From Strigops habroptila (taxonomy: Eukaryota; Chordata; Aves; Psittaciformes; Psittacidae), in the NCBI RefSeq assembly GCF_004027225.2, contig NC_044283.2:12232992-12296991 (forward strand): DNA of 64,000 nucleotides, read 5' to 3'. The position numbers were made by a program, and so were the translations under genes. Each line of letters opens with the position of its first letter. Within the stretch, counting starts at the first letter, position 1. Below the pieces are notes generated by a model. That model did not search any database, had not been told where the DNA came from, and was given only the letters and a program-made list of their open reading frames with translations. Positions 4,800 through 64,000 of this stretch are shown in pieces.

Positions 4800-4930
4800 G
4801 GGCTTCTGAGCCCCCTTAAGCAGATAGGTACTGTGAGGCACCAAAATCCAGTGACTTGCTGGAGGCCACAAAGGTCATGAAGCTGAAAGAACCTACATCT
4901 CCTGCCATCAAGTCCTGTGGTTTATCTGCA
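4800..4930 (+). repeat. MIR-like SINE fragment (tentative)
   Basis: The middle contains GTGACTTGCTGGAGGCCACA, which resembles the conserved MIR core (GTGACTTGCCCAAGGTCACA) with flanking text of similar type. It is heavily diverged and recognised by eye only. Confidence 0.4.
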
Positions 4931-6545: not shown

Positions 6546-8025
6546 CAGGTTGGAAAACACCTCTGAAGATTGACAAGCCCAACCTCCTCCTCAAAACATG
6601 GTGAGTTCCAAAGTGCTCAGGGACTTAACAAGTTACAGTATTTTCAAGGTTGGAGACTCCACAACCTACCTGGACAACTTGTTCCAGTACTTAAGCACCC
6701 TCCCTGTGAAATAAAACTACCTAATAGCTAATAAACCTTCCTAATGCCTTTAAATTTTCTATGTAGCCACTTCTATCCACTGCATCTTCTCCTTTTGCTG
6801 TGCACTTCTAGTTCTCCCCTCTCTATATCCCTCCATGAGGTAGTGGAAGACTGCAGTTAGATCCTCCCTTAGCCTTGTCCAGGGTAAATAAGCACAGAAC
6901 TCTCAACTTTTCCTCGCGCTGCCTTAACTTTCCTAATTTTCCTATGCTTGCAGCTCCCCAACCATTTTACTCCCTGCTAGACTTGTTCCAGTTTATTCAG
7001 CTCTCTCTTGCACAGGAGGTCAAAACTGAACACACTTCTCTAGATGGGGTCTTGTAAGTAATGAATAGAGGGGAATAACCACACGACCTGCTGGCTACAG
7101 TCTTGACAAGGCAGCCCAATATGCAATTGGCTTTCATTGCTGTGTGTTCCCGCTGACTCATGGTCACCTTGTTGCCCACCAGGAGCCCCCAGGTCTGTCT
7201 GCAGAGCTGCTTTCTAGCCACTTGGCCCCCAGCCTGTACTAATCTGTCTTGGCAGAACAGCGTGCTTGCATTGTGAACATCACAAGGCTTCTACCAGCCC
7301 ATTCCTCCCACTTGTTGGGGACCCTCTGTATGGAAGCTCTGCACTGCTCTAAGATATCAACTGCTCCCGTCCCACACACACAGTTAGTCATCATTCATAA
7401 ACTTGCAAAGGGTGCATGTTGCCCCTTCATGCTGATGCATTGGAACAGGCTGTTCAGGGAAGATGGTGGTTTAAATACCATCATCCCTGGAGGTATTTAA
7501 AAGCCAAGTAGGTGTGGGCTTAGGAACATGGTTTAGTGGTGGACTTTGCAGTGCTAGTTAATCGTTAGACTTGATGATCTTAAGGGTCTTTTCCAACCTG
7601 AACAATTCTGATTCTATGAAGCTGTTCAACAGTATCAGCCCCAGTACTGACCACTGAGAAAGATCACTTTCAGTTGCCTGCCAATTTTATTTCAAACCAT
7701 TGATGACTCCTCTTCAAGCCCACAGTCTGATTTTTCATCCACTACCTGACCCATGTCTCACCAGTTTGGCTACAAGGAGACCATGCTGGAAGCCTTGTCA
7801 AGGTAAACAACATCTACAGCTATTCCTTCAACCACAGAGCACTCATTTCATTCTAGAAGGTAATGAATTTGTCAGGCATAATATGTCCCAGCAAATATGT
7901 GCTGTTCTCAATCATTTTCTTGCTCTTTAAACATCTGGGAAGTAGCTTCCAACGTGACTTGCTCCATAACCTCTTCAGGAACTGAGGTGGCACTACCACA
8001 CCTGCAGGTCACACAGTCCTCCTCC
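6546..8025 (-). repeat. Old CR1 LINE copy, interrupted by a younger CR1
   Basis: Read on the minus strand, this is a CR1 non-LTR retrotransposon. From 6546 it starts with the 3' tail (complement of GGTTGGAAAACACCTCTGAAG), continues through the 3' part and reaches the reverse-transcriptase region near 7690-8020, where phrases such as CTTGTCAAGGTAAACAACAT and CTTCAGGAACTGAGGTGGCAC match the usual antisense CR1 ORF2. Continuity is broken from about 7440 to 7617 by a CR1 in the opposite orientation. Many substitutions and indels are visible and no long frame survives. It is a dead, 5'-truncated copy. Confidence 0.8.
7440..7617 (+). repeat. Younger CR1 3' end nested in an older CR1
   Basis: It begins near TGGAACAGGCTGTTCAGGGA, runs through GGAGGTATTTAAAAG and ends with GATTCTATGA, a typical severely 5'-truncated CR1 3' end in plus orientation. 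The text on both sides belongs to one older minus-strand CR1, so this copy inserted later. Confidence 0.8.
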
Positions 8026-10409
8026 TTGCATTTCCGTGGAAACTCATTCATTTAAGAAACTTGTGGAAGGCTGGATGGGAGGTAAAACAGGAGTAATGAG
8101 AATGAAAAACAGCACAGTGGAACATGAAACCACAAAATCCTTAGAACGTTTCCTGTGCCTGATTCAGTAGCAGAGGGAGGAAGAACTCTGAGTACCCTGA
8201 GCTGACACCTGCTGTGCCAATTTTCCACATGGAATGCTATTTAAAGCCAAAGTACACAGCTTTCAAAATGGAGTTATTAACTGCTAGATCTGTTCTGTGG
8301 TGTCATACAAGAGAACGCTATAATCAAGCATATATGTGGTTAGAACAGAAACAAGACAAAATATTTCTGCTTCTTCAACTCCTGTTGCAGACTTCAAGAT
8401 GGTTCTCTAAAGTCTCTCTCATGTTCACAAAAAAGTCAGGAAAGGTGCTTAAAATTGTAGAAAGGAAACTGGATGTCAGATTCCGATCTCAGAGAATGAT
8501 GTTTTTATTTGAGAAGTCCAGCTCCTATTAATCAATAGAATACCTCCTGCTGCTTTCAGTATGTGTTATACTGAGCCACTGACTGCACTGAGTGCAAGAC
8601 TAAATTGAAGGAAGAGCAGACCAGCACATACACAGTCTGATGTTGTTTGTGCTGACAGAACCAGACAAACAACTTTCCCCTAGAAAACAACCTGAATTCA
8701 AAGTTAATGTCTATTTGACAATCAAAACCATCCGAGTTACTCTGAGGACACTGAAGCAGAGTTTAGAGAGAGGAAAAACTGGAAAACACTCGAGTATTCA
8801 GCTCAGTAAATTTAAGATGTTTATTTTACCTTAAGTACAACTTCAGTGAAATATTCCCTAGAAAACTGTAAGTACCCATGAAACCCTCTTTCAGATGTGA
8901 ACTACACTTAAGAGCTGCAAGTGTCTCTGCCTCTGTAGGTAACATTCCTGTCTCAGAATTCACACAGCATTTGACACCTTTGGTTTCTTTGCCATAGGTC
9001 TTTACTAGACATTTGGCTCACCTTTAGTTTATGAGCCATTCTTTCTCTTAGACCCCTTGCAGTGCTATCAATATTTAAAGAATTGAAAAACCAGCAATGG
9101 ATGGCGAGGGAGCGACTGCTCCTTTCACAGGCATTAGTTTAATCTAGATCATTTCCCAAGAAGATTCAGTAACATGTACATGATGAGTCACTACTTAGTA
9201 CAGAGCATGACATTTAGAATAACATGGGTTACCCAGGAGCCAGGTCTTATTGACTTTCCATGACATTTATTCTTCCCAATGCCGGAGCTGATTTACACAG
9301 TGGGGCTTAGTAATTTTTGTAATGTAGTACCCTTTCTTTCCCCCAAATCTCTCTGTGTCTTGCATGGGCTTAATGAAGGATATTTTAAAGTATTATGCAT
9401 GAATATTATGACATTCTTGCATAATGTCTAATCTGGCTTACACATATGCAGTTTGCATCTGCTTCTTTGAGTTTTAATCTATATTTTTATGGTTCAAACC
9501 TAACAAATATAAACTAGGTTTCTAGCATCTGCCTGGGGCAGATACTGCCCTAACACTGCCTCAGGCAGTATCACTGCCCTAAAACTGCATGTTGCCATCT
9601 CTCAGCTGGAAGTTACTCCCCTTGCATCAGAGCCAAGAAGCCAGAATGTGTGAGACCTCATTCCTTCAGGGCAAAGTCAAAGCTGACTTTAAACCATGCC
9701 AGTCACAGCTGGAGCTACGCTGGCTGATTTTGCACCACGTTGCACATTTACCTATCTGATGCTCTGCATCAGGTGTGGTAACCTCTAGCTGAGAGTCTAA
9801 CTGTCCCTTTAGCCACCTTCTGCATAGCTGGTCCACCCACATTTCAGCAGCATCTGTACAGACTAGCACTGATTCAAATACTAGTTCAATAGTGCCCTTT
9901 TTAAGTCAAACCAAAAGCGACAAATCAGGTAGACTGGTTCTATTGCAGAAGCTAACATTTCAAAAATTATAATTACTTGTAAATGCTACCTTGAAAACAG
10001 ACAAAATTATGTCTGCTATAGAAAAACAGGCTATGTAGATACACCTAATTATAAGGTTTTTGACCTGTTTGTTATCACGTAGTTAGCACAAGTGCCTTTA
10101 CCTACTGTGGAAAGACCCCAAAGCCACAGAGTTGATAGCTCTGCATCATTTCCAGCAATTTAAAGTAAGGCAGAAAAGTTCAGTGTTATTAACTCCTAAT
10201 AAAAGAGTTTTGCATTCACATTACACAGGTACAGACAACTTGCATCACAACCTATATGGTAAAGTTACAGAAAAAACAAGCATATTTGTAATGCTAGAAG
10301 TTGTTCTTCTATTCCAAAATAAGACTAACATAAGACATTGAACAAGTGAAATAGAAGTTCAGGTCACGATTCACATTCATGTTGCAAGGAAGCATGTATC
10401 GGCTATCAA
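8026..10409. other. Intergenic DNA
   Basis: No gene seen. The 105-codon frame at 8214-8531 resembles no family I know and has no flanking splice or codon evidence. The one structured spot is the hairpin and direct repeat at 9527-9588. Confidence 0.55.
9527..9588. repeat. Compact hairpins with a 29-bp direct repeat
   Basis: ATCTGCC (9527-9533) pairs with GGCAGAT (9537-9543). GATACTGCC (9541-9549) pairs perfectly with GGCAGTATC (9564-9572). ACTGCC (9555-9560) pairs with GGCAGT (9564-9569). In addition ACTGCCCTAA occurs at 9544-9553 and again at 9573-9582. The arms are mutually exclusive, so alternative hairpins can form. Function unknown. Confidence 0.75.
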
Positions 10410-10757
10410 TCATAGAGTCATAGAATGGTTTGGGTTGGAAAGGACCTTAAGATCATCTAGTTCCAACCCCCCGGCCGTGGGCAGGGACACCTCACACTAG
10501 ACCATGTTGCCCAAGGTTCTGTCCAACCTGGCCTTCAACACTGCCAGGGATGGAGCATTCACAACTTCTTTGGGCAACCTGTTCCAGTGCCTCACCACCC
10601 TCACTGTAAAGAACTTCTTCCTTATATTCAACCTGAAAATTTCCCCTGTTTCAGTTTGAACCCATTACCCCTTGTCCTGTCACTACAGTCGCTGATGAAG
10701 AGTCCCTCTCTGGCATCCTTGTAGGCCCCCTTCAGATGTTGGAAGGCTGCTATCAGT
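10410..10757 (-). repeat. CR1 LINE 3' end
   Basis: Reverse-oriented CR1. It starts with the tail (TCATAGAGTCATAGAATGG), then GGTTTGGGTTGGAAAGGACC, and extends about 350 bp through the conserved 3' region. It is 5'-truncated and relatively well preserved, suggesting a younger copy than the one at 6.5-8.0 kb. Confidence 0.9.
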
Positions 10758-17849: not shown

Positions 17850-18052
17850 ATAGAATCATAGAATAGAACCATAGAATGGTTTGGGTTGGAAAGGACCTTA
17901 AGATCATCTAGTTCCAACCCCTCTGCCATGGGCAGGGACACCTTGCACTAAACCATGTGGTCCAAGGCTCTGTCCAACCTGGCCTTGAACACTGCCAGGG
18001 ATGGAGCATTCACAACTTCCTTGGGCAGCCCATGCCAGTGCCTCACCACATC
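17850..18052 (-). repeat. CR1 LINE 3' end
   Basis: The tail has a partly duplicated repeat (ATAGAATCATAGAATAGAACC then ATAGAATGG), followed by the GGTTTGGGTTGGAAAGGACC block and about 150 bp of typical CR1 3' sequence in reverse orientation, ending abruptly near CCTCACCACATC. It closely resembles the copies at 10.4, 38.3 and 63.6 kb. Confidence 0.9.
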
Positions 18053-29200: not shown

Positions 29201-30721
29201 GTTAGTGTGAGCTGTAAGAAAAAGCATTTCTCAGTTACTGAGTGTTCTTGCACTGTTTTCAAGTATTCAAACTGGGTGTTTGAATACTTCGTCCTGACGT
29301 TCATTTTCAGTGAGCATTGTTTCACTGATAGGCTGCTTAGTGCAGAAGGACTTTGAGTCATGTCTGAGCTCAGAGATGTTAAAATAGAAATAAATAGTCA
29401 AATAACATCTCTCATGAATACCAAATTACAGATAATCTGTACGATTTTAAGTTTTATCATTCATAGATGACTGTTCTTTCTGTTGAAGGAAGAGATGTGC
29501 AGTTGTTAGTGACCCTTTCTTGAGAACTACCTGATCCCTATAGATTTTGCCAGGTGCTTTGGTAGGGTTTTTTCCGTTTAAACCAAAGACTTGTGCTCTG
29601 GTAATGCTCATACTGCTGCTTGGTAAGCAAAAACCTACCAAAATGCAGAGCACTTTGTCACTGGTTCACCTCTGCATAGAAATGTGTTATTTTACTGAAT
29701 TATTTCGGTTTTTCATGATTTCTAGAAATGGTTTGCCTTCAGTGAGATGAGGCCGGATTCTGTTAGTGTGAGCCACAGACCAGCTTCAGGACAGGGGCTG
29801 TCGTTACTTAGGAATTGCTCAGTGTTCCCAAGGCACAGCTTCTGGCTCTGTACAAGTGGTTTGTAGTGGCGGGGAGAGGTGTGAGTTCTCACACTGAATC
29901 ACAGGAGTCCCTGTTCACCTCCCAGGCTCCTCATCAGTCTGACTACATGGTTTTTCCTCTGAAAAGATTTTTGGCACATGAGATTAAAGGGTAGGAATAG
30001 GGCAACATAATGCTTTGAACTTCAATCCCAGGATGAGAGAGACATGAGGAAATGATGTTAATCTGAAGCTTTTGGTAACTTTGGTTAGAATTTTAACTGT
30101 TAATGTCAGGTCATCAGCTTTAGCTCTTTTAAATTGAAATAATTTCTTTCCATAGAACTAGAGGAGGAGATGTGGATTTCAAGGTACCTGGAATAGTTCT
30201 GTATTATCAAGTAAAACTGGAAAGGACATTTTAGCCCAAATGTTGAATGATGTATCTTGTTAGAAATCTACAAAGAGTACAGATCATTGCTGTGGGGTTT
30301 GGGGTTGTGGTTGTTGGGCTGCCTGTTTCCCTCAATGGGCTAATCCCAATCCCTTCTCTTTTATTTCTTCTTAGGGATTCAGAGCTTCTGTAAGGACTTA
30401 CTAGAAGTTGCAGACATCCTGGAGAAAGCAACTGAAAGTGTTCCAAAAGAAGAAATTAAGGATGAAAACCCTCACTTGAAAAGCTTATACGAAGGTCTCG
30501 TTATGACAGAAGTACAGATTCAGAAAGTGTTTAAAAAGCATGGCCTGCTCAGACTGAATCCTGTTGGAGCCAAGTTCGATCCCTATGAACACGAAGCGTT
30601 GTTCCATGCTCCCATGGAAGGGAAGGAGCCTGGCACTATTGCATTAGTATCCAAGATTGGCTATAAGCTGCACGGGCGTACGCTGCGGCCCGCCTTGGTG
30701 GGTGTTGTGAAAGACGCTTAG
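25783..30721 (+). CDS. GRPEL1: GrpE-like 1, mitochondrial co-chaperone (4 exons)
   Basis: GRPEL1 is the nucleotide exchange factor for matrix Hsp70 (HSPA9/mortalin). It releases ADP and substrate so that the import motor and folding cycle can turn over. The coding sequence joins 25783-25853, 26734-26902, 28328-28409 and 30375-30721 (669 nt, 222 residues; human has 217). Residues 1-30 are basic, lack acids and suit a matrix targeting peptide. Residues about 62-115 form the long GrpE dimerisation helix (KLEEQLKEV, KYKRALAD, RQRSQKLVEEAKLYG). From residue 175, FDPYEHEALFHAP opens the C-terminal beta domain that carries the GrpE signature and contacts the Hsp70 ATPase lobe. All introns are GT-AG and the frame is intact. 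The start fits MAAxxQCVR of the family. The gene is tail-to-tail with TADA2B, as in other vertebrates. Confidence 0.97.
25854..26733 (+). other. GRPEL1 intron 1
   Basis: The first 370 bp continue the CpG island. The remainder is ordinary sequence ending in a T-rich acceptor (TTTTTGCCTTAG). No other exon is seen. Confidence 0.85.
26734..26902 (+). CDS. GRPEL1: GRPEL1 exon 2
   Basis: It completes the split arginine and reads TSPRLLCAATQQKNTG, the end of the presequence, then an acidic linker and the start of the long helix (EEKAKLEEQLKEV). The donor is ACC|GTAAGT. The exon ends exactly on a codon boundary. Confidence 0.95.
26903..28327 (+). other. GRPEL1 intron 2
   Basis: 1.4 kb without recognisable exons or repeats. 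The acceptor is TTTCTCTTCTTTAG. Confidence 0.85.
28328..28409 (+). CDS. GRPEL1: GRPEL1 exon 3
   Basis: Encodes DKYKRALADAENIRQRSQ and the rest of the dimerisation helix to KLYG. It ends with one base of a glycine codon before GTCAGT, a weaker donor than the others. Confidence 0.95.
28410..30374 (+). other. GRPEL1 intron 3
   Basis: 2 kb. It holds a G/T-rich low-complexity run at 28786-28860. No additional exon is seen. The acceptor is TTATTTCTTCTTAG. Confidence 0.85.
28786..28860 (+). repeat. G/T-rich tract with four G-runs
   Basis: Runs of three to six G separated by T-rich spacers lie on the coding strand of GRPEL1 intron 3. G-quadruplex formation is possible, although two loops are over ten bases and would make it weak. 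Confidence 0.6.
30375..30721 (+). CDS. GRPEL1: GRPEL1 exon 4 (coding part)
   Basis: Encodes the last 115 residues: FCKDLLEVADILEKA, NPHLKSLYEGLVMTE and the beta domain ending in RPALVGVVKDA, then TAG at 30719-30721. Near-identical to the mammalian protein. Confidence 0.97.
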
Positions 30722-36656: not shown

Positions 36657-37649
36657 TCAGGAAGCATCCCTGGATATCCAACCACTTTCTGTTAGAAAGT
36701 TTAAAATCCTTTTCTTCAGTACCTTGTCTAAGTAACTGGGAAGGCGACTCTTGGAAGGAATTCCTTGTCTTTTTTGGAGATGGTCTTTAATGATTATAGT
36801 TTTTACAGTCACGTAACGCGCAGGACTCAGGTTTAGAGAGCTGCAGAGCACCTTTTCCCTGTCCGATAAGAGTTCAAAGCCAGGCAGGTTTTCAATGGCA
36901 GCGAATTCACCTTCTTTCCCATCTTCCTTCCCTCTCTTGGAGCTCGCTATGTTTTTGTTCTCCTTCCTCTTTTCCCGTTTATGCCTGGCTGCCTCATATT
37001 CCGCTGACTCTTCCATTTTGGTGATCCCATTCCGACGGTACCGCTGCAGCTCCCGAATCTTTGCTCGGAGTATCCTCTCCTTATGCATGTTCTCAAAGAA
37101 GTCTTCAAACTCCTTACAAGACATGAACTGGTAGAGGGGCCTCAGTTTGAGCCTCAGCTCCTTCTCCTCTTTAGTGATCTTCCGTTTGGGAGCTTTCTCC
37201 TTGTCCTTTTTATCCTTCCCCAGAAAGGCCGGTACCAGGTTATAGTCTCGTGCGATGTTCTTCCGCCGCTGCCTCTCCTTGAGCTTCCTCACGTACATGT
37301 CCACGTGAGCTCTTTTCAACTCTATCTCCACATCGTCGTCGTCGTAGTTCACCGAGAGGCCGCTGATGAGGGTCTCCGCGTCCTGATCGTATTCGATCTC
37401 GTAGTCGTCCCGCAGCGGCATGTACCCGAGCTGCTGCTGCTCCGCCACCGATATGTCCAGCGGCGGCAGCGGTGTGGTGAGGCTGGGGGACAGTGGCCCG
37501 CCGCTGGGGCACGTGTGATCCGTCACTCGGTTCGGGATCGTGTCAGGGATGCAGGCTTTCCCCAGGTTGCCGTGAATGTACATGCTCACATAGTGCTCCA
37601 TCACCTCCTGGGGCGTGCGGGATGCTCCCACGTGAGCAGCCATGTCCTC
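36657..37649 (-). CDS. TADA2B: TADA2B exon 2 (coding part)
   Basis: A single 331-codon exon that starts GAG GAC ATG after a CCGTTTAG acceptor and runs to TGA. It encodes the second half of SANT ([20 protein letters not shown]), the linker, and SWIRM. A start at the internal ATG would lose the ZZ finger and break SANT. Confidence 0.97.
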   Translation of the reverse strand, partial: EDMAAHVGASRTPQEVMEHYVSMYIHGNLGKACIPDTIPNRVTDHTCPSGGPLSPSLTTPLPPLDISVAEQQQLGYMPLRDDYEIEYDQDAETLISGLSVNYDDDDVEIELKRAHVDMYVRKLKERQRRKNIARDYNLVPAFLGKDKKDKEKAPKRKITKEEKELRLKLRPLYQFMSCKEFEDFFENMHKERILRAKIRELQRYRRNGITKMEESAEYEAARHKREKRKENKNIASSKRGKEDGKEGEFAAIENLPGFELLSDREKVLCSSLNLSPARYVTVKTIIIKDHLQKRQGIPSKSRLPSYLDKVLKKRILNFLTESGWISRDAS

Positions 37650-39040
37650 CTAAACGGAACATAAGGAGGAGTGATCAAACGATTCCCATCACAGCTCCAG
37701 CATAACACGCACTCAGGGAAGAGCCTGACTACTTCTTCCCTGCTCCTCAAAAAGCCAACTCGCAGTACTTAAACTTTCCTAGCGATGCTGAAATTAGCCA
37801 ATTTGCCATCAGATCTGCGTTTTCAGGTCCAGACAAGGATTTACAGGTGCACAGGGGCACATCAGCCACAAAAGCAGCACAGAGGCAAGCTGCACTGGAT
37901 CCTCAGGCTACAGAATACCACCGAGACACTGGAGCCACACGGTGATTCCTGAGCATCCATCACTCTCTCAGCTGTCCAGCTCACCAGCACTAGGAAGCTT
38001 TCTGAGTCCCAAACCAGCACCGAGATCACTGCATCGTTTGGATTGTGCTCATTTATACGGCATCGCTGAAGTACTTTTATACCCATACAGAAATACAGCA
38101 CTTACAGCAAGAAAGATGGCATTTACTCTCTTCTAGTTGGTTATTTAAGAACTAAACCAAGCTACAATGATCATAACCTTTAAGATTTTGAAAAAGTCTT
38201 TGTGTTTAATAAGACAAACCATAATCAATGAACAATTAATGAATCAAACTATGCTATTCTTTAAAAATGACCATGTACTGACAGAGAAGGCAAGCAGCGA
38301 GCTCACAGCTGGGACACAGAATGGTTTGGGTTGGAAAGCACCTTAAGATCATCTTTTTCCAACCCCCTGCCATGGGCAGGGACGGCTCACACTAAACCAT
38401 GTCACCCAAGGCTCTGTCCAGCCTGGCCTTGAACACTGCCAGAGATGGAGCATTCACAACTTCCTTGGGCAACCCATTCCAGTGCCTCACCACCCTCATA
38501 GTGAAGCACGTACCGACAGAACACAGCGAACGCTGACAAGCAGCAGGTGTGCGCTGTAACACACGGGCTGGGGGGCCCGTGCCGGAGCTCAGGGCACCCA
38601 CAGCTCCGCGAACCCCGGCGGGTCTCACCCGGGGGCCGCGCAGCCGCCCGGGCCCGGCGGCTCCCCTCACCCGCGGCGCCGCGGGGGCCCCCCGCAGCCT
38701 GTCCCCAGACCCGGCGGGGGCCGCCCGCTCGCTGCCAGGCGGACGTGCCCCCGCGGCCCTCGGCCCTTACCCAGTTGCCGAAGCCGAACTGCTCGATGGC
38801 GTCCAGCAGCAGCTGCTCCTCCCGGCTGCTCCAGCTGCCCTCGGCCTCGGCGCCCCAGAGGGTGAAGCGGCCGCCGTCGACGAGCTGGTAGCCGTGCCAT
38901 CGGCGGTGCGGGCCGATCTCGGCGCCCGCCGAGAAGCAGTCGGGGCAGAGCTCGATGTCGGCGCACTCGGTGCAGCGGAAGCGCAGCGGGCTCACCTCAG
39001 CCAGGCAGTACACGCAGTACTTCTTCCCCAGTTCCGCCAT
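36657..39040 (-). CDS. TADA2B: Transcriptional adaptor 2-beta, SAGA HAT-module subunit (2 exons)
   Basis: TADA2B (ADA2b) tethers and stimulates GCN5/PCAF in the histone acetyltransferase module of nuclear SAGA. The coding sequence joins 39040-38771 and 37649-36657 (1263 nt, 420 residues, exactly the human length). Residues 9-49 form a ZZ zinc finger with ligands C9, C12, C23, C26, C32, C35, H45 and H49. A SANT domain (about 66-118) contains W70 and W90 and is cut by the intron right after W90. The middle carries acidic [10 protein letters not shown] and basic [12 protein letters not shown] segments. Residues about 332-420 ([14 protein letters not shown] to SGWISRDAS) are the SWIRM domain, which in this family binds nucleosomal DNA. 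The frame is intact and very close to mammals. The start codon lies in a promoter shared with CCDC96. Confidence 0.97.
37650..38770 (-). other. TADA2B intron
   Basis: 1.1 kb with a GTAAGG donor. Its 5' half (38510-38770) is part of the CpG island and its 3' half carries a reverse-strand CR1 at 38314-38507. No exon is seen. Confidence 0.9.
38314..38507 (-). repeat. CR1 LINE 3' end in the TADA2B intron
   Basis: Starts at CACAGAATGG and GGTTTGGGTTGGAAAGCACC and continues with the same 190-bp text as the CR1 copies at 10.4, 17.9 and 63.6 kb. It lies in the sense orientation of TADA2B. 5'-truncated, well preserved and therefore fairly young. Confidence 0.9.
38771..39040 (-). CDS. TADA2B: TADA2B exon 1 (coding part)
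   Basis: 90 codons, from ATG at 39040 to TGG at 38773-38771, ending on a codon boundary before GTAAGG. It holds the whole ZZ finger and the first SANT helix ([14 protein letters not shown]). The start is fixed by [12 protein letters not shown], the family N-terminus. Confidence 0.97.
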
Positions 39041-39043
39041 CTT
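39032..39043 (-). promoter_or_regulatory. YY1-type motif over the TADA2B start codon
   Basis: AAGATGGCGGAA on the minus strand overlaps codons Met-Ala-Glu. YY1 motifs at this position and orientation are a known feature of many TATA-less housekeeping promoters. Because the bases are also coding, conservation alone would not prove binding. Confidence 0.55.
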
Positions 39044-39450
39044 ACCCCGCCCGCCGACACCCCGCGCGCACGCGCCGGCACGCCCCAGCGCCGGCCTCGC
39101 CAATGGCAGCGCGCCCGACGGGTGGAGACCAGCAAGAAACCACCAATGGGAAAGGAGGGCTCGGCCCTCCTCTAGGCATCCCGGCCAATGGCGACAACGC
39201 GCCTGGGCGCGGGGGGTATTAAAATGAATAAAAGGCGAGGATTGGCCCACAGGGATCCGGCTGCCTTTCTCGCCACCAATCGGAGAGGAGACCCCGAGCA
39301 ACCCCGCCGCTGAATGGTTAGTCCCGGCTAGGGGGCGCGGCCGAGCCGGCGCCATGGGGAGAGGGGCGGGGTCGCGCCGGCCGCGGAGCCGAGTGCCGTT
39401 GCCCGGGTAACGGGGAAGCGGCGGAGGGGCCGGCCCGGGCCTCGCAGCGC
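39041..39450. promoter_or_regulatory. Shared CpG-island promoter of TADA2B and CCDC96
   Basis: About 400 bp of CpG-rich DNA separates the TADA2B start from the CCDC96 side. Five CCAAT/ATTGG boxes (39100, 39143, 39185, 39241 and 39276) suggest NF-Y. The YY1-type AAGATGGCGGAA covers the TADA2B start codon (39043-39032). A CTCF-like CTAGGGGGCGC lies at 39328-39338 and an RFX X-box at 39398-39411. There is no TATA box. The head-to-head arrangement of the two genes is the same in mammals. Confidence 0.8.
39398..39411 (+). promoter_or_regulatory. RFX X-box on the CCDC96 side
   Basis: GTTGCCCGGGTAAC satisfies both halves of the X-box pattern (GTNRCC, two-base spacer, RGYAAC). RFX2/RFX3 use such sites, usually close upstream of ciliary genes. 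It lies between the CCAAT cluster and the CCDC96-like sequence. Confidence 0.65.
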
Positions 39451-40052
39451 GGTCACCGCGGAGCCGGCGGGGCCGAACGGGCTGAAGAGGCCCCGGTCTC
39501 CCCGCTACCGGCTGCCCCCGACGGGGCCAAGGCTCCGGAGGTCGCGGGGGAGCGGACGGCGCTGGCGACAGGGAGCGGCGGCGGCGGGACAGCGCCTCCC
39601 GCAGCTACAGCGGGTCGGGTGGCGGCGGGCGGAGCCGGCGCCGGGTGAAGCTCCGCTGTACGTCCAGCGGCTGCGGGCCCAGCCCGAGCGTTCCCCCTCC
39701 CAGCGCCGCGAGAAGGCGGCGGCGCTCTCCGTCCTCCACCGGCGAACAGGGCCAGGAGCAGCGAGTGTGGCGGTGCGGCCCCGGCCCCCGCTGGCGCGGC
39801 GGCTGCAGCCTCACGGAGCTCATCTCTGCCCGTCTTCTCTTGGCAGAAGGGGCCTAAAAAGAACAAACTTTTCCTCTTTTTACAGACACTTCTTGCCCCT
39901 AACGTCTACCCCTCGGGAATTAAACACCAATAGCTTTTCTCCCCTTGAAGCTTTATTATTGTCGTGACCTATTTTAAACAGAAGCACTTCCTTGCTGGTA
40001 AGACAAGGATTAAAGAAATAAGAGTAATTTTTCTTTATTTCTACTCCTCTAG
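39412..40052 (+). other. Presumed CCDC96 5' region, coding content uncertain
   Basis: 39412-39850 is GC-rich. One open frame (39460-39645) reads alanine-, glycine- and glutamate-rich sequence such as AERAEEAPVSPL, which suits the low-complexity acidic N-terminus of CCDC96. A second frame contains PLYVQRLRAQPERS. Neither starts with ATG and they cannot be aligned with confidence. The central coiled coil known from mammals was not found. 39860-40030 is AT-rich. Just before 40053 there is a good acceptor-like stretch (TTCTTTATTTCTACTCCTCTAG). Confidence 0.4.
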
Positions 40053-40631
40053 GCCCACAAAGAGAAGCTGAAGCATGAAATCCAAAACCTTGAAACCACC
40101 TTGAAGGCTCAGGGAGAACGGGCAGAGGGTCAATGCATTATGGACTTTGAGTACAGGAAGAAGAGAGAATCATAAACTCGGGGAAAAGATTGGCAACCTC
40201 AGTGAGAAAAGCCTGAGGAAGGTATCGAACACAGTGCATGTTCTCTGTTCTCAGCCAGTCCAGGGAAAAAAACCTGGAGTTCGTGGAAGCTGAAAATCAA
40301 GGCAGAAACACCAAACTGATGGACATTAAGACTGCCCTGTCACAGAATAGAGACATTCTGACCAAAATTAAACAGACCAAAGACACTGTGGAGAAAGAGT
40401 TTGAAGTTGCAGGAGAAATGGGGGTTGCTTGGGGATGAGGTACTGCTTCAGGACTGTGAGGAAAAGGTGGCTGTGGTTGAACTGCTGAGTCGGCAGTTGG
40501 GAACACTGGAACATCCCCATGCTGGGCTGCTCCTTACTTACAGGGGAATTCAGAAAACAAAAGCCAAAGAAGCTAATTCCTCTTTTGTTGCTGAGGATGA
40601 CCAAAGAGAAGCAAGTGTGGAGAAGAAGTAA
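40053..40631 (+). pseudogene. CCDC96: CCDC96 remnant (frame broken three times)
   Basis: CCDC96 is an axonemal coiled-coil protein that works with CCDC113 in motile cilia. Three frames together match the last 190 or so residues of mammalian CCDC96. The first (40053-40175) reads HEIQNLETTLKAQ and MDFEYRKK and stops at TAA. The second starts around 40167 (ENHKLGEKIGNLSE). The third starts around 40245 (EKNLEFVEAENQG, NRDILTKIKQTKD). A further shift near 40420 leads to GLLGDEVLLQDCEEKV, ending at TAA 40629-40631. The breaks fall near AAGAAGAGAGA, A7 and G5 runs, so assembly error is a real alternative. The mammalian protein is about 555 residues and one exon. Position and strand between TADA2B and TBC1D14 confirm identity. 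I favour a decayed gene because the central part is also missing. Confidence 0.75.
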
Positions 40632-41849
40632 GGGAGATTTCTGTAATTCTAACTTTTAACATGCTGCTTTTTGGTAAGTTTTGGGGAATACATTGCACAG
40701 GTACTCCTGAAAAAGCCTTTTCTAAGTGATGTGTCAGTATTATGCATTCAGTGATTACAGTAGCTACTCATTTTGAATGAAACGATATACATGTCCCTGT
40801 CTTAAAAAAAGCCTCAGTGAAAATTCCAGAGTTAGAAAACCATGTTTAGCATTCAGCCCTTGTAGGCCATGGCAACACTGTGTCAATAGAGCACTCACCC
40901 TAACTCAAATCCTGATCCTGCCTCCGTGTGGATTTCATAACTTGGAGTCGACTTCACCTGCGCACTAAATGCACCTGCCTCTGGGCACAGCTGAAGGGGA
41001 AGTTTTCACAGATGTGGCTGGGAACTGGGAAGAAGCTTTTCTTCAAATAGACTGGAATTAGTATTGGGAAAACAGGTAAGGAAAAGGAACTACAGTTTTG
41101 AGCAATTTTGTGCAACTCTTCTAATATACACAGTATAAAGCTCTGTCAGCATCAAATTGGTATAGGCTTTATGAGGCAATTCTGATTTTACATTTTAATC
41201 CAGCAAATCAAACAGTAAAATCCTTCAGGAAAACGGAGACGCACATTTACTGGAGGAACTAGAACTGTGGCAGCCAAGTCTCTGTGTTCCCTGTGTAGTC
41301 TTGTTGCACAGGTACTGTCTTCTCTCCCCTGCTTTCATCTATCTTCTACTTGGTGCTTTAACCTCTGCAGTTAAGCAACAGGAAGCTTCTCCACTTTAAT
41401 CTCTGAAGTTATGCCTATGTAAGTATTAAAAAAAATACTGCCTTGAGCACAAAAATGCCACGTGATTATGAAACCTGCAATAACCCAAGATTTCTCCTTT
41501 TAAAACAAAGGAGAAGGTATTTGCGCATTTCTGAGTTCTGTGCATGTCACACAGATGTATTTACATCTGGTTTTCATAATCTATCAGATCTCAGACTAAC
41601 TTCAGAGAAAAGCAAACAAAATGGATGAAACCATGGGCACTGTAAGTACCAAATCTTCTAAATGTCACATGCAATATAACAGGTATTTTAACATGAGAAC
41701 GTGGAAAGCATCACCAAAAAATCCTCCACCTGCAATACTCGAATGTCCCAAAGTCCTGATTTTGGACAGACCCAAACTGCTAACGCAGCCTGTGAAAAAA
41801 GAGACAGGTACTTGAATTTTTAATGTCTGAATCCCACCAACCACAGGTG
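40632..41849. other. Interval between CCDC96 remnant and TBC1D14 3' end
   Basis: No gene or recognisable repeat seen. Frames are at most about 65 codons. Confidence 0.5.
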
Positions 41850-48100: not shown

Positions 48101-51100
48101 CAAGCTGGCAGTCCCCAGCATCTAGAGGCAGGCTGTCACTTCCAGGGAAGAACCATAAACTCCCATTTGCAACTTAACTGCCATAACCACTACGTTTAAC
48201 ATCACCTTAGTTTCACTGCAAAGAAGAATTCAGATATAATCGGCAGAGCTCTACTACAGCAGGACTCATGAAGCAGGTTGTGCTACTGCTTCCAAGAAAC
48301 TGAAAAGGGAAAAAGTATAGTAAGAAAAGAAGTTTCCACTCCAAACGCTCTGGAGTACATTTGACCTGACCCTCCAGCATGAATGGCTGTTACAGCCACT
48401 TAACAATTTCCATGTTCAGATGACACCCTTCCATCTTTTTTCTTTAAACTGGAGTTTAGTTGAAATGACAGTGACACAATGTCTGAAATAAAGGCTTCTG
48501 TGCTGAATTCCAGTAAAGAAGTCAGAGATGCAATCACTTCTGTGCAGCCTAGATCCTCAAGAATATAAAGATGATGACTGTATGATAATGTGTTCTGACA
48601 AATTGTCATCTTCTCCCAAAGAGCAAATTTCTACTTTTAAATATCAACTTGTAATTTTGCCAGCAGCCTTTGTAATTAATGAATTGAAAAAGCTGTATGA
48701 TAATGTACTTCATCAACTCCACTCAACAGTTCAATTTTGAATGTTGACTGAGCTCTCCCTTTCCAGAGGAGAGTAAGCTCAGGGAACCCACTCACCTGGA
48801 TGTGCACTAAAAGCATGGAGTGAGCTACACAGTCCTACCTACCTGTAAAATCAAGCCCTAGCTCTGCTAAAGCATTCCTCCAGGTATTGCCAAACCCCTG
48901 TTTTCCCGAGTACAGTACAATCATCCGTTAACAACGATTAACATCCCCTTTACCTGAGCCCACTTTTTGTTTCTACTTTGCATCTGAATGGCAGCAATAG
49001 ACGTGAAGAATTCTTCTGAAGGCAAGTCCTCTGGTAGCTTTGTTAAAAACTGCGCTATGTGAATGAAGTCCATTTTGGTCAAAATATCTTCAAAAAGTTT
49101 TAATATTCCCAGGGCTGTACGGAATAAGAACTCTTCTCCATCACGGCAGAACACGTCCCAGACACGACATGCCAGGTCTAGCGGCAAAGATTTGCTGTAC
49201 AATGTGAAGATCCTGAAAAACAGAACAAAACTTTCGGTGTTAATGGACGAGAAGAATATCCTGGACACCCACAGAAGCACACAGCCCCATCATCAGTAGG
49301 TTTGAGGCTTCTCAAACATTTATAACTGAATATTCATTTTTTTTAATTCCAAAATTCCTTCTATTAGTTGCAGCATACCAATACAGGAAACAATATAACA
49401 GCTATTAAGGCCTCTTGCTATCAGTCTGGGTCTCCAAGTTCAATTTTCTTGGATCACACCAGAAGAAACAATCAATATATATGGGATTATGATGGACATG
49501 CTCTGGCCACAGGCATTATTTAACTATCCCTTCAGAGTTGAGGACTGATGCAGTTTTAGCTGCAAGGAAACAAAAAGCTGAACCTTAAGACATACTGCAA
49601 AGGGAAATTTGTGCACCAGATGAAGGAGATGTGTAAATATAACTCTGTGTTCCAGGCTTGACTGACTGGCAAAGTAATGACAGCATGAGTTTTGGAGGAA
49701 AGATCCGTGTAAACTCTAGCAAGTTGAGAGAAACAGGCACGACGTCCAGAGAGAATATGCAGACAGCTGTGACAAGTTGCTGGCTCAGTGTGCTTGAATG
49801 GATGCGATCCCCAAACGGAAAAGGTAACAGTGGAAGCAAGAACCTCCTCCCTGTTGCTAAAACCGTATTTCCACTAACTGCCAAGAGCACGTCTTGCTTC
49901 ATCAAAACGCCGACAGCTTCCAGCCAGGAACCCAAAGATGCTCCCCACTCCCTCCTCTAGCCAACATTTCACTACAGGCACAGCGAGTTTTCTCTGCCAC
50001 TAGCAATGTCACTACAAGAAGCGAAGAGAACTAAGTTCCCTGGAATCCCGTTACAGTATGTCAGGGAAAAGAGTTACCGTTGGGTTTTTCCTACAGGTTT
50101 TAGAGAGAACCTCTCTCCACAGAAGCGCTGCATAACATCTCCATAAACTGCAAACAATTCTGTCTCCGGCAGAGGTCAGCAAAGCCTCAAACTGAAACAA
50201 AACCTTTCCCACATCTTGTAACACGAAATTCATGAACAGCAATTCTCTTGTGTTTAAGACTCCCTCCTAAGATCCCCAATTTCTTATTTAGGAAATTCGG
50301 GTTTACATTAAATAATACAATGGAACAGATTTACACAACCACACACTTGTGTGTGTGTATATATATAATCTCTATATAGGTATCAAATACGAGGTTATTT
50401 GAACGATGTGTTATCGACGCTTCCATGTCAATCAGGACACTTCAGGAAAATGAGAAAATATATTCACTTTACAAGCACCAAGACGGAACCAAACCATGTG
50501 CACAAATTCAGGTGCAAGTAAATTGCAAGTTTAGGATCCTCAGGGTTTTACCTTTTTTCTACCATTACATGCCATTGCAATGCTTTCTATAAAAAGTGGA
50601 AATCATTTAAATACTGTTCTCCAAAAAGCTAAATCAGAAGTATAAAAATAAGCAAAGCAGAGGTGGAGTCTGGGGGAAAAAACCCCACTATTGTTCCTGT
50701 ATGCATTTTACATACATACATGGATGTACAAGAACAGCACAAAACAAAGGTCCTTCTTTGGGTTACTGCTCATCGTGTTTTGGAGACTTTGCCTACTCTT
50801 TCAACATTTCTGTTCAGTGAAACACCATATAAACACATCTCGCTACAGAATACCTACACAGCAGAACTCACACCTTTTGTCTATACACACACACATGCAC
50901 AGGAAGCAGCAACAGCTTTTCCATTTAAAAAGACCAGTGTAATAGGAAGCAATTCGACCGAGTCCTTTCCTGGTCACCAAGTAGCAGGGAAACACTCAGC
51001 CAGGAACTAGTCCTGGTATAGATAAGTAACAATGGCTGCTTTTTTTGGATCTGGTTTTATTCACAAAAGCTATTATTCAGGTCTAACCTAAATAGCCCAT

Positions 51101-54100: not shown

Positions 54101-57100
54101 ACTCACTTGCTAGAACACAGACCCACATGATTTTTCCTTCCATCTTTTCTTTATTACATCCTGGAAGTAATGGAAGGACAGCACATATAAAGCCCAATTT
54201 GCTAAGTTACCAGTGCCTGTTAAAAAGAAAATAAATCTGCTTCCTACAGGAAAAAAGTATTTTAAAGTAGAAAGTATATATATATAAAAAAAATATATGT
54301 ATATATAAAGTATATACACACATACATATATACACATGCACATACATATTTAAATGATACCCAAATCTTACACAGTTAAATACATCTCCACTGTCTAACA
54401 AAACTGAAGAGAGTGGGACAAGCTGTCTAACTGGAGATGTGTTAAAAAAGTTGAATATAGGATTGGGCAGGACCACCTCAGCTAGCCTACCTTCCCGTGC
54501 ACATTCTGGTGTGGTGACTCTCTAGGGATGGGGAAGAACACAGCAAATTGTCCCTGGGATTAAAATAAACAGCTTTAGTATAGATGTGGGCAGTCAGCGA
54601 GAAATGCTGAGGGTTGTCAGTCCATCGGTACAAAGCCCTTGAGAAGCTCCATCCACAACCACTCCTGACAAGTTTCCTTCAAGTGCTCTTGACGATACCC
54701 ACAAAGGAGCGCAAGGGGGGCCCGATGTGCCCCCCACACTCAGACTTCAACACTTCAGTGCTTTGCTCATAAGTCAGCTACTGTCTGCCTTTTTTTTTGT
54801 AACCTACAAATGTGCTCGAAGAGAACAACTGGCCACATAAATGTTTACTCAAGAAAATACAGTAAAGACTAGTCTGTCAAAGCAAAACTCCTGAGGGGAA
54901 TGTAAACCTTCAACCTGTTGTCAGAACAGTCTTTTTCTAAACCTCCAAGTTCTGGTGTTGTTCCTCAGGATTTCTTCTTTACAATGTAAGCTCAAAGTTA
55001 TACAATGCATTGCTATTACTGTGCCTGCACCATGAAGACACTTGGTTTTAGTCTCTCCTACATAAAAAACCCACCTTAGTTGCACCAGCATCATATTAAA
55101 CTAGTAATTAATTAAAAAGATTATAACCTGGTGATTTTAATGTTGTCTATCTAGTTACTCTCCAGCACATTTATAGTCTTCCTATTCTGATATCCCTTTT
55201 ATTCAATTGCTTCCTCCACACACAGGCTTTTCACAACATTGTCTGAGGCAATGTAATTTCAACATCTTTCCTGTTATCATTGAACATACCAGCCTCTGCT
55301 CCCTTCCATCCTATTCCAGGATTTTTTCTAGCATCTTCCTGCTCTATGTATAGATCTAATTCAGTTTAATATTCTCAACCTTCAGTCATAAAAATCCTTC
55401 CAATGCGATTTCTCCCATCACATACTGGGAGAAATGAGCCTATCCATTACACACACTCTCATTCTCCTACTCATCTTGCATTAAAATTTAATCCCAGTGT
55501 AAAAGCCAAGTCAAACACAGCCCAAGTTATACTATCCTCTGTGTAAGAGGCATACAGAAAACAAGGAACTCAAGCAAAGGCAGCAGGAGGCCCGTCTGGA
55601 TGAAGAAGAACCTCCTGACAACACTCAAATATAAAAAGGAAGCACACAAGATGCTGAAGGAGGGGCAGATGACCCTGAAAAATGTAGACATTGCCTGAGT
55701 ATGCAGAGAAGGGGCTAGGAAATCCAAAGCCCATCTGGAGTTGAGCCTGGCAATGGATGTTAAGGACAATGAGAAGGGCTTTCCCTACGTCAGCAGAAAA
55801 AAAGACTCAGGAAAATATGAGCCCGTTGCTGAATAGGGCAAGGAACCTGGTGACGAAGCACATGCAGAACTGCCTTCTGCACCTCAGCCTTAATGAGAAC
55901 ACTTGCCTTCAGGAATCCCTGGTCCTCCAGAGCAGTGGGAAAACCTAGTGCAAGGAAGCCCTACCCCTAGGTGGAGGAAGAGCACTTTAAGGAACATGCA
56001 AACAAACTGGGCATATACAAGTGCATGGGACTGTCTGCTGTCATTGTGAAGCCACTCTCAATTATCTTTGAAAGACCCCAGTGATCAGGGGAGGTTCCTG
56101 ACGACTTGAAGAAAACAAATGGGTTTTCTATCTTCAAGAAGTAGGATCCAAGTAACTACAGGCTGGTCAGTCTCACCTCCATCCCAAAAGTAATAGAAGA
56201 AAAATTCCTGGTTATCACTTCAAAACATAGGATGGCAAAAAAGGTGATTGGGAGAAGTCAGCATGGATTTATGAAAGCAAAATCATACCTGATCAACCTG
56301 ACAGCCTTCTACAATATGAGATGACTGGCTTGGTGGATGAGGGGACACCAGTGGATGTTTATCTTGATGTCAGCAAGGTTTTCAACACTGTATCCCATAA
56401 AATCCTTGTTGATGAACTGATGAAGAATAGACTAGACAAATGGACAGTGAGGTGGACTGAAAAGTGGCTGGAACTGCCAAGTTCAGAAAGTTGCCATTAG
56501 TGGTATGAAGTACAGCTTCAAGCCACTCCACTGGCAGAGTACTCCAGCGTTGATACTCATCCAGCCTTGTAAATACCTCCATTAAGGACCTAGATGATGG
56601 ATCAGACTGTACCCTCAGTGAGTTTGCAGGGGATACAAAGCCGGGAGGAGTGGTTGATACACCACTCCACAGGGACCCTGCGACACTGGAGAAATGAACC
56701 AACATGAGTCTCATGAAGTTCAACAAAGGGAAATGCCAAGTCCTGCACCCGGGAAGGAAATAAGGCCAGGCACCAGTACATGTGGGAAGCCAACAGACTG
56801 CAATGCAGCAGCTTTGCAGAAAAGGAACAGAGGTCCTGGTGAACAACATGTTAAATGTAAGCCAGCACTGTGCTTTTGCAGCAAAGAACATCCACAAACT
56901 CCCGGGCTGCATTAAGAACAGCACTGCCAGCAGGCTAAGGCAGGTCATCCATCTACTCAGCACTGGTGAACCAGCTCTGGGCTTCCCAGAACAAGAAAAG
57001 ACAGATATACTGGAGCAAGTCCATCTTGCCATGAATATGATTAAAGGCTTGGAGCACCTGGTGCACAGGGAAAGCTGGTACTGTTTAACCTGATGAAGAG

Positions 57101-60100
57101 ACAGCTTGGACCTAAATGTGTAGAAACACTTGACAGGAGGGCTTAAGGAAAACAGAGACACACTCTTCTTGTATCCAGTGAAAGGACAAGAGCCAACAGG
57201 CACAAACTGAAATACAGGAAATTCCATTTAAATGTAAGAAAATAAAAGCTTGTTCACTGCGAGGGTGGTTGAACACTGGAACAGAGTTGCCTGGAGAGGC
57301 TGTGGAGTCTCTTGCCTTGGACATACTCAAAACCCAAGCGGACGAAGTCCTGAGCAACCTGCTCTAGTTGACCCTGCTTTGAGCAGTGGGTTTAGACTAT
57401 ATGATCTCCAGAGGTCGCTTCCAACGGCCCCAGCAATTCTATGATCCTATGAAAACTCACATATTCAAACTTCAAGCTGTTGAATTGGACTGAATTATGC
57501 TAAACAGATTTCTGTCTAATGGATCAACAACATGTTCAGTGCCAACAAGTAGGTCTTAAAAATCAGGGTACCAAGAGTTCAGTTCAGGTGGAATTGCATT
57601 AACAAACAGCACAAATGTTCTCCAAAGTAATACCACATGAATCTCAGAAAAACACACAGTTACTACTGGGAATTTAATCTTTTACTGAAGGTATTTAGTC
57701 AGATACCCGAGGACAGGAGAAGTTGTCAACAACTTTAGGGCAAACCAAGTTTTCACAAAAGATTACATATCCTCCCACACCAGTCATGCTTGGTGAGAAG
57801 AAACGTTTTAGCTGCCCCAAACCAGCCTGATAGGCACAAATGCAAACACTCTGTTTGGAGTTCCTTATACTGCACTGAAATTTGGCAGGAGTGCAAATAA
57901 GATCATTGTCTTTTCTTCTCTCTCAGGAAAAACGTTCTAATTACACTGGAACTAAAAGGGAAGGTAGTTTCACCAAATAAAAAGATTGTAATTGCCTATT
58001 TGCTAAGGGGAATAGCTGCAGTAATTAAAAACATGCCCTTTAGCTATTCAACTGAGCTATGTCAATCAAGATCAGTTTTCAGACAACCCATACTGGGATC
58101 CTCTAAACGGGATCCGGGACCACCTAACATGAGTAACATACAGCCTAAGAGCCATAGTTCATCCTGCCAAAAGCCGAAGTGCTTGCTTTTCTGTAGCTTC
58201 TAGCTTTTTGTTGTACGGAGAAACGTCTTAACTCCTCTCCTGTTCTGTGCAGGCAGAAAACAATGCATTCTGAATGCCAGACTAGCAATACTTTCTGGAT
58301 ATATACCCCTGGGACACACCTGCACAGGGAATAGAAAAACAGATTTTTCTCAGAAGATCAATCTAAATATGCATTAAATATGGATAAGCACTGCTATACA
58401 GCTGTATTTCAAAACAGGCTTCAAACTCAACACAAGTACAACAATAGAGGTTAGGCAAACACTAAACATCACAGGTGTATGTGGGAATGATGTGGATTGA
58501 CAGCTCAAGTACTGAACAAAAGGTAAAGTCTTTAACTTAAAAGAACACTAAGACAGGTAAGAGCACTCCAGCTTCTGTCCTGAACACTGACACAGAGCTA
58601 TATGGTAGTATGCACATGAGTAATTACATTTTCAAAGCCTTACCAATCAATCAGATAGATGTCTGGTGTCAAGTTATTCTTTTTGAAGTGAGCAAATAAC
58701 TTTGGCAGGTTTTCTTCAAAGAATACCTCAAATGCGGCAAAGTAAGTCAACATCTGGGAAACAGAATGGGGAGAAAAACAAACAGCTGTATTATTAATAG
58801 GCTTAAATGCATTATCCGTTGTTCAGTTAATGCTCTTCAAAAATAGGATCCTATGAATTCCATGATACCATGAAGAGCTAAACGTTTACATAAAGGACAG
58901 CATCTGCAAGCACAAAGAGTTTAAGATCCACTCGATATACCATTCTCATACTGAACAATATAATTACTGGTTTGGGTCTTGGCCAGCTTCCTTTGGAAAG
59001 AAAAACACCAGCAGGAGAGAAGTTATTTGCTGATTTCTCAGAATAATTATAACAGAATGGTGCTTTATGCCTGTGGCAGTAATTTAATATTCTACTGAAT
59101 GAAATCCAAGGCCCAATGGATTATAAAATGAAATATGAAACTAAAATAATTTAATAGTCCACAGCAAGAGTGAAAAGTCCACTTGGGTCCAGTTATAAAC
59201 CATATTACAATAGCAAAGATTCTTTTATACCATACATTTTAAAATTAGGTAATCACAGAATCAGACATTTCCATTGCAAAGAAGAAGAGTTGAAGTTCAC
59301 GCCAAGAGGGAGAGATGAAGTTCACACAGAAAAGCCAAAGATCGGGACAAAACACCAATGCAAGAGAAACAGACTGTAACTCCCACCTGATACCGTAACC
59401 CCTAAAGCTGTATTGTTTTTAACACTAACGCTTTCATGTTTTAGAATTTGAATATTTAGGTTAAATTTCATAACAGAGGGCATGGAAAATCTTCCAATCC
59501 AACTAAGAGTTAAAAACAAAAGGCTTTTTAGCTCCCTCACCCTTCTTCTTAATAATATAGGGAGGAAAGTTAAGCAAAGTCCTTGAATGATTCAGTAATT
59601 TTAACATCCCAGTGAAAGCAATAAAGAATGGCTGTGATTCTTGTTCTTCAGTTTTATCAGCATGATTCTCCCCAAACCACCACGACAGTAAAAGAGGAGC
59701 TTTCTGGAGCCTTTTGTCTGAAATCCTTTGAAAGGATGACAGATTTGTTTCCCAGCATCTTAATGTCCTTACAGATTTGTCTCCTGTTTCATCTGAACGA
59801 GGTGGCAGATGGTGGAAGACCTTCACTCACAGTGGCAAATAAAAAATTGAGCCTGGCACTCAGTAGGTGTTTAAGGCTTAAAAGCCAACCAGAGATGGGT
59901 GCATGCTACAAGAACAGTACAAAGTACTGTAAAACCTCTGAACCATCAGGTACTGAGAAACAGCTTCATGGCAAATGTGACACCAGAAATCTAGAAACCC
60001 ACTTTTACAGAACTGTACAACTGAAACAGCTTCCCAACATGGATCTTTAAAAGCATGAGGTCCAATCATTGCATCAGATCTGTGAGTGTACAACAGAAGG

Positions 60101-63353: not shown

Positions 63354-64000
63354 CTATAATTAAACAAAAACAAGACAATACATCTGAGGATACAACAAAC
63401 ATGTCAAAAACTGTTCAGTGCTACAGATATAACGTACCTACTATCTATAATCTTTCCCCATGCAGCTTTAAACAGTCCTGAGTCTTTCAAAATGATTTTG
63501 GCTTTAAAAGCATGACACAGCCCTCCATACCACACTTATTCCAAATGCATACAGTTCATCTGATAGATTGATTACATATTAAGTGGTGAATGCTCCATCC
63601 CTGGCAGTGTTCAAGGCCAGGTTGGACAGAGCCTTGGGCGACATGGTCTAGTGTGAGGTGTCCCTGTCCATGGCAGGGGGTTGGAACTAGATGATCTTAA
63701 GGTCCTTTCCAACCCAAACCATTCTGTGATTCTATGATATTAAATCCTCACACAAGAGGAATACAAACCTAAGAGATTTCTTATAGCTTAGCAGCACTTT
63801 GACAATAGTGCCAAGAAAGCAGAACGCTAATAAAGACTAACTTGTCTATTAAACTAGAGGCAGAAGTCAAGCATGAAGAAAACAGTCAGAACAACAATAT
63901 GCCATAACATACAATCAGCATATCAAAAATAACATGTATAGTTAAACAATTTCACATTGCTGACTATTAACAGCTGCCATATTTTACACTGAGTACTGTA
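63354..64000 (-). other. TBC1D14 intron, runs off the window
   Basis: No exon found up to the right edge. It contains the CR1 at 63582-63739. Confidence 0.75.
63582..63739 (+). repeat. CR1 LINE 3' end
   Basis: Begins GTGGTGAATGCTCCATCCCT and ends with the tail TTCTGTGATTCTATGATAT. It is the reverse complement of the text in the 10.4-, 17.9- and 38.3-kb copies, so the same subfamily in opposite orientation. Well preserved. Confidence 0.92.

Follow-up and report, generated by a model that had tools for sequence, protein, structure and literature searches.

In Tetrahymena, Ccdc96 and Ccdc113 are reported to link radial spoke 3, dynein g and the N-DRC, and cilia of the CCDC113 knockout are without Ccdc96 (PMC7987202). 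Deleting Ccdc96 or Ccdc113 lowers swimming speed, and the C-terminal part of Ccdc96 suffices for ciliary localisation (PMC7987202). The same study describes Cfap299 as reduced or missing in both mutants, and in the experiments it sets out, Cfap299 neither co-purified with Ccdc113 nor was biotinylated near it (PMC7987202). In the sperm of mammals, the CCDC96/113 coiled coil carries WDR64, which interacts at that place with CFAP299, CFAP57 and CFAP58; the contact described for CFAP299 is the one with WDR64, not one with CCDC96/113 itself (PMC11779644). Disruption of CCDC113 in mouse is reported to give disorganised sperm flagella, faulty head-tail coupling and male infertility (PMC11643634).

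Conservation of the axonemal sub-complex of CCDC96, CCDC113 and CFAP299 extends from algae to mammals, and its CCDC113 part is needed for mouse male fertility. The linker is considered necessary for ciliary and sperm beating, and our results suggest that it has been lost in a bird. We analysed a stretch of 64,000 nucleotides of the Strigops habroptila genome, which we call the window. Its CCDC96 locus is very probably a unitary pseudogene, whose 5' coding part has gone by deletion or replacement, while frameshifts and substitutions are eroding its last exon-like block.

The locus and its neighbours

In human, CCDC96 is a single-exon gene between TADA2B and TBC1D14. A sequence-only reading of the window had put a broken CCDC96 in the same place, and the exons of both neighbours were indeed found on the minus strand, on either side. 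The remnant lies between the divergent TADA2B (36657-39040, minus strand) and an exon of TBC1D14 (48921-49289, minus strand). The neighbouring features are:

30344..30721, plus strand: ORF of a GrpE-domain exon (PF01025, E 1.3e-31), presumably GRPEL1 by synteny
36657..37649, minus strand: ORF of the second TADA2B exon, 330 aa
38773..39040 (approximate ends), minus strand: first coding exon of TADA2B, open, with ZZ_ADA2 and Myb matches, ORF 38402-39604
48921..49289, minus strand: ORF of the TBC-domain exon of TBC1D14 (2qq8_A, E 1.7e-51)

The window also holds copies of an interspersed repeat that are 88-93% alike (38380-38560, 10485-10614, 17946-18049 and 63581-63663), one of them in the TADA2B intron; they look like CR1 3' ends. 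At 56382-57227 on the minus strand there is a 281-aa stop-to-stop ORF starting with ATG, with no Pfam match at E<=0.01, which may be a repeat read in an antisense frame.

The C-terminal remnant of CCDC96

What survives of CCDC96 at this locus is only the last ~170 codons, in three frames:

40053..40631, plus strand: C-terminal remnant of CCDC96, human residues ~376-551, in frames 0-1-2-0, with the original end lost
40160..40165, plus strand: frameshift 1, net +1, within a short repeat rich in purines, after which frame 0 runs into a stop at 40173-40175
40219..40247, plus strand: frameshift 2, net -2, in the simplest alignment one 2-base loss
40385..40398, plus strand: frameshift 3, net -2, which amounts to +1

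Homology identifies the remnant as the orthologue of CCDC96, since the top chains for two of its ORFs are CCDC96 and not CCDC113. With phmmer against PDB chains, the best chains for ORF 40217-40438 were 9fqr_Ks (1.4e-5) and human 8j07_i1 (0.0022), and ORF 40362-40631 matched the same two at 8e-11 and 5.9e-9. Of the PDB entries 8glv, 8tek, 9e5c and 9fqr, we take the first to be algal and the last to be mammalian. In tblastn against the window, the human and 9fqr CCDC96 queries both matched 40247-40384 (frame 2) and 40398-40580 (frame 3), and the algal 8glv query added earlier pieces at 40068-40160 (frame 3) and 40165-40245 (frame 1). All of these pieces are collinear and C-terminal.

A frameshift-tolerant alignment over 40053-40660 paired 40065-40580 with human residues 381-551, with 65/168 identities to human and 69/168 to 9fqr; human and 9fqr agree with each other at 143/171 positions over this part. 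The scores of 240 (human) and 276 (9fqr) at penalty 15 compare with 48 and 46 for the best of 100 dinucleotide shuffles per query. The alignment has three shifts at all penalties between 9 and 40, and a penalty of 6 gives five. The overall length is nearly conserved (516 bases for 171 codons), and the ORFs that compose the remnant have 40, 62, 73 and 89 codons, every one ended by a stop. When the shifted frames are followed there is no in-frame stop in 168 codons.

The phmmer, tblastn and frameshift results bear out what had been read from the letters, namely that only the C-terminal coiled coil is left and that it is split over three frames in under 600 bases. The range first given to the locus, 39412..40631, needs to be divided: 40053-40631 has CCDC96 homology, and 39412-40052 has none that we could detect. 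The Pfam family of the CCDC96 coiled coil, PF13870, did not match any of 8 single-frame pieces at E<=1, nor the assembly at E<=0.001 (12 candidates scored).

The substitutions in the remnant bear on whether the decay is real. In a core of 56 residues, 31 columns are invariant in five distant orthologues; the remnant, whose row in this alignment was placed by hand, keeps 17 of them, has 12 substituted and has the other two at a lesion or gap. Its core identity to human is 23/56, against 41/56 for the algal protein. With 17 of the 31 invariant residues left, the conserved IDFEQLKIEN...NEKIEERNE core of functional CCDC96 has not been kept.

Upstream of the remnant

The start, the N-terminus and the central coiled coil would be expected in the stretch just upstream, next to the promoter:

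39398..39411, palindromic, no strand assigned: X-box-like palindrome GTTGCCCGGGTAAC, intact, in the divergent TADA2B/CCDC96 promoter
39412..40052, plus strand: stretch in which these parts of the gene would be expected, with no recognisable CCDC96
40028..40052, plus strand: acceptor-like pyrimidine tract and CTAG, abutting the start of CCDC96 homology

The central part of CCDC96 (human 196-378), aligned with frameshifts to 39300-40052, did not score above shuffles. The human score was reached by 39/100 shuffles at penalty 9 and by 28/100 at penalty 15; the corresponding counts were 5/100 and 26/100 for 9fqr, and 73/100 and 41/100 for the algal query. When the human query was aligned over 39301-40760 it chained upstream to 39330 with 12 shifts, for a score of 276 vs 258 for the C-terminal part alone. 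We take this chain to be chance because shuffles match the scores of the central part. We had considered 39412-39830 as a surviving piece of the central helix, and dropped it with its scores within the range of the shuffles. There is no ATG on the plus strand from 39354 to 40075, and we did not find an open frame with a start codon and central coiled coil for CCDC96 at the locus.

The promoter, which had been described as having an intact X-box, does carry an X-box-like palindrome of RFX type: GTTGCCCGGGTAAC is the only site of the X-box pattern in the window, the minus-strand match being the same palindrome. The sequence TTTTTCTTTATTTCTACTCCTCTAG is acceptor-like and ends at 40052, and 21 of 1748 tested YAG sites are at least as pyrimidine-rich. 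This site may be an old exon boundary, although CCDC96 has a single exon in human.

Genome-wide search and controls

We searched the assembly (1,148,577,936 bases in 89 contigs) for other copies. A human CCDC96 query of 351 residues (205 to the end) gave two matches genome-wide at E<=10, both in the remnant. The central coiled coil, reported missing when the window was first read, was absent from the searches of the window and of the 1.15 Gb assembly alike. CCDC96 is disabled at its ancestral locus with no intact copy elsewhere within the sensitivity of the search, as would be expected of a unitary pseudogene. Scans of viral contigs for relatives of TADA2B and of CCDC96 gave none.

The controls show what this search can detect. 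Exons of CSNK2A2 were found at 75-97%, and exons of its paralogues down to ~65% over 35 residues. MC1R residues 33-317 are open at 63%. The control axonemal gene RSPH9 was recovered as five collinear exons at 52-80%, with no stops and all but residues 128-131. Human GAS8, whose query matches 8j07_0 along its full length, had no match genome-wide at E<=0.01, and the GAS family gave two weak matches below the cut-off. In human gene order GAS8 (DRC4) lies near MC1R, and here ~53 of 60 kb on one side of MC1R is N. The assembly as searched therefore has holes. The N beside MC1R comprises all of C26:2180001-2230000 and 3297 positions in C26:2230001-2240000; it may stand for a gap, for masking or for a further loss, and we base no conclusion on GAS8.

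CCDC113, the heterodimer partner

A genome-wide search with the human CCDC113 query, which we verified to be identical to 8j07_i2, scored 5 candidates and gave no match at E<=10. In human, CCDC113 and CSNK2A2 are arranged head to head, and GINS3 comes next. We examined 120 kb around CSNK2A2 (C26:21120001-21200000 and 40 kb of C25). Exon 1 of CSNK2A2 is on the minus strand at 2021-1917 of piece L007, in which positions 2836-8621 are C26:21122836-21128621, and plus-strand exons of GINS3 (56, 74 and 81% identical) are in L011. Between the two genes, in L007, tblastn gave weak CCDC113 pieces with E values of 0.002, 0.022, 0.022 and 0.37. With the frameshift-tolerant alignment they resolve into three collinear C-terminal exon remnants spread over C26:21124897-21127559:

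L007 4897-5014: CCDC113 remnant, human 260-299, score 73
L007 5934-6161 (~5977-6110 convincing): CCDC113 remnant, human 292-363, score 82
L007 7509-7559: CCDC113 remnant, human 347-363, score 53

The maximum of 30 shuffles was 47. By the human alignment there are shifts near L007 4987, 5976 and 6056, with frame changes inside the first two remnants; by the 9fqr query there is one shift (6056), not three. Several splice-like sites are intact. Residues 1-259 were not found. We sought the core (186-262) on both strands of L007-L010 and L015, and rejected a weak core-like match in L008 (44 vs a shuffle maximum of 42) that was not collinear.

Contig C25 holds a gametolog-like, partly rearranged copy of the CSNK2A2-GINS3 interval that is without L007 ~2836-8621 (~5.8 kb), so the CCDC113 stretch is gone from C25. 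Where C26:21122836-21128621 is compared with C25 (L015 8327-8631), the flank towards CSNK2A2 aligns at 82% and the opposite one at ~89-90%. Part of L011 aligns to the C25 copy in rearranged order, and 30 kb of C25 past the gametolog-like interval reads N. Judged from its sequence, CCDC113 is disabled in the same genome as CCDC96.

CFAP299

CFAP299 was first picked as a neighbour and control. It gave three matches at E<=10, two of them exons on C3 (56-57%) and one a weak match elsewhere (E 0.80). The two exons, both diverged, are:

C3:85313658-85313813 (L021): CFAP299 exon
C3:85287663-85287809 (L022): CFAP299 exon

In one of them, four codons from its beginning, a stop stands in frame in place of an invariant tryptophan. 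Over the two exons, 34 of the 48 columns that are invariant in four orthologues are kept. Over 91 residues, the matches to human are 54 for the bird, 61 for the alga and 53 for the most distant orthologue used, so the bird does no worse than the last of these. Judged on two of its exons, CFAP299 is probably broken too.

Estimated age of the proposed losses

CSNK2A2 and MC1R, which are chromosome 11 genes in chicken, are on C26 (101.9 Mb), and a second copy of CSNK2A2 exons 1-2 is on C25 (37.4 Mb). We made a clock from the aligned C25/C26 flanks, which have 441 differences in 5469 sites and 44 gaps not divisible by three; one promoter block of 1322 sites was left out beforehand. These alignments differ at 8.1% of sites, gaps excluded, and the published Z-W similarity for the stratum is ~86%. 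On this clock, six frameshifts in ~789 remnant bases (three per gene, by the human alignments) correspond to 0.076 substitutions per site (0.028-0.166). The frame loss would then be 1.8 times (0.66-3.9) as old as the Z-W separation, on the doubtful assumption of equal rates for Z, W and autosomes.

The stop-free path of 168 codons through CCDC96 is compatible with 0.05-0.1 substitutions per site and fits poorly at 0.2 or more; neutral decay without a stop is unlikely above ~0.2 substitutions per site (simulated probability of none, 0.032). By our own rough estimate, the loss of invariant residues suggests ~0.2 substitutions per site or more. Part of the divergence of CCDC96 may be older than the loss of frame, and relaxed selection before that loss would reconcile the missing stops with the lost invariant residues.

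Alternative explanations

The remnant could in principle be an intact CCDC96 that was split by assembly or base-calling errors, with a GC-rich central part that dropped out. The shifts do sit in purine-rich or short-repeat sequence, the upstream half of the locus is ~67-78% GC, which is a known weak spot of assemblies, and the followed frames have no stop. The concern had been raised that the shifts lie near homopolymers or short repeats, and for the purine-rich and short-repeat setting this is so; frameshift 2, however, can also be read as a 9-base in-frame loss with a 7-base tandem duplication (GTTCTCT/GTTCTC). Assembly error fits CCDC96 poorly because indel errors cannot substitute invariant residues. 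The window is also without a single N, and the ORFs of four exons nearby (two from TADA2B, one GrpE and one from TBC1D14) are open, although their selection from an ORF list makes them a weak control. The true loss that had been proposed for CCDC96 is favoured over assembly error because of the substituted residues, the central coil that is unmatched genome-wide, the lesion readable as a tandem duplication, and the partner that is broken at a distant, independent locus. We consider such errors a most improbable account of the locus.

Other readings accept the lesions and keep a working gene. The lineage might have a fast-evolving short CCDC96, made of the C-terminal block and a new 5' exon, with CCDC113 diverged alongside. 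The acceptor-like site that coincides with the beginning of homology, the intact X-box, the nearly kept length and the lack of in-frame stops all suit it, and in Tetrahymena the C-terminal part alone is reported to reach cilia (PMC7987202). The stop at the end of each of the four ORFs and the substituted invariant core stand against it, as do the frame changes of CCDC113 itself and its missing residues 1-259, and we find a short protein very unlikely. An intact CCDC96 or CCDC113 might instead lie in unassembled or N-masked DNA, the visible loci being decayed duplicates. Runs of N do exist (L016-L018 and L025-L029 are all N), and the conserved axonemal gene GAS8 went unmatched as well. Both remnants, however, occupy the ancestral syntenic position, at which human gene order leads one to expect the original gene and not a copy, and a W-linked copy could not serve males, so a hidden copy is to our minds quite unlikely.

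The intact X-box and splice-like sites, the stop-free path through CCDC96 and the single shift of CCDC113 with 9fqr remain points against reading CCDC96 as a unitary pseudogene, the reading that we prefer. Further points against the wider reading are that CFAP299 is no further from human than the most distant orthologue used, that Cfap299 neither co-purified with Ccdc113 nor was biotinylated near it in Tetrahymena, and that GAS8 and the N beside MC1R reveal holes in the assembly; the lack of any PF13870 match counts on the same side.

Proposed loss of the linker as a unit

The CCDC96/CCDC113 heterodimer was probably co-lost, perhaps together with CFAP299, and we read this as loss of an axonemal linker, probably in a parrot lineage. 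We lean slightly towards the view that the whole sub-complex of CCDC96, CCDC113 and CFAP299 was lost together in the ancestry of this bird, probably no later than the common ancestor of parrots. Joint decay of CCDC96 and CCDC113 would be expected because the partners appear to be mutually dependent: loss or dispensability of one could have freed the other from selection, as the missing Ccdc96 of the Tetrahymena CCDC113 knockout would lead one to think. CFAP299 may have decayed after the two. From the remnants we infer the order and age of the losses, the absence of a product and the effect on beating.

If the linker is truly gone, cilia and sperm of this bird would beat without the link from radial spoke 3 to dynein g. 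A fertile vertebrate that lacks the complex would then be a natural knockout, and the linker would be dispensable in some axonemes or have been replaced. Cryo-ET of sperm or tracheal cilia from birds would then be predicted to show that a specific density is missing.

Comparison with known systems

In the open-licence literature we found no title on loss of CCDC96 or CCDC113 in birds, which may stand in the supplements of missing-gene surveys. The main text of one such survey, of genes missing in birds, has no mention of CCDC, and its gene lists are in the supplements (PMC4290089). The main text of the study of WDR93 and CFAP46 has no mention of CCDC either (PMC10445033).

That study reports a loss in birds that resembles the one proposed here, in that two axonemal genes of one structure were pseudogenised or deleted in the same lineages (PMC10445033). 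The structure affected there is the C1d central-pair projection, whereas ours is the linker of radial spoke 3, dynein g and the N-DRC; if our reading is true, the linker would be a second axonemal module beside that joint loss. STK33, described as a unitary pseudogene of neognath birds, likewise survives in remains that carry exon deletions, indels and stop codons, and is a possible spermatogenesis gene (PMC4509753). It is a single kinase, for which many birds and expression were surveyed, whereas we have one genome and its sequence alone. The Tetrahymena Ccdc113/Ccdc96 complex is orthologous to the one considered here, and its experimental loss is reported to lower swimming speed and beat amplitude (PMC7987202). 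That loss was an engineered knockout in a ciliate, whereas the loss proposed here would be a natural one in a vertebrate.
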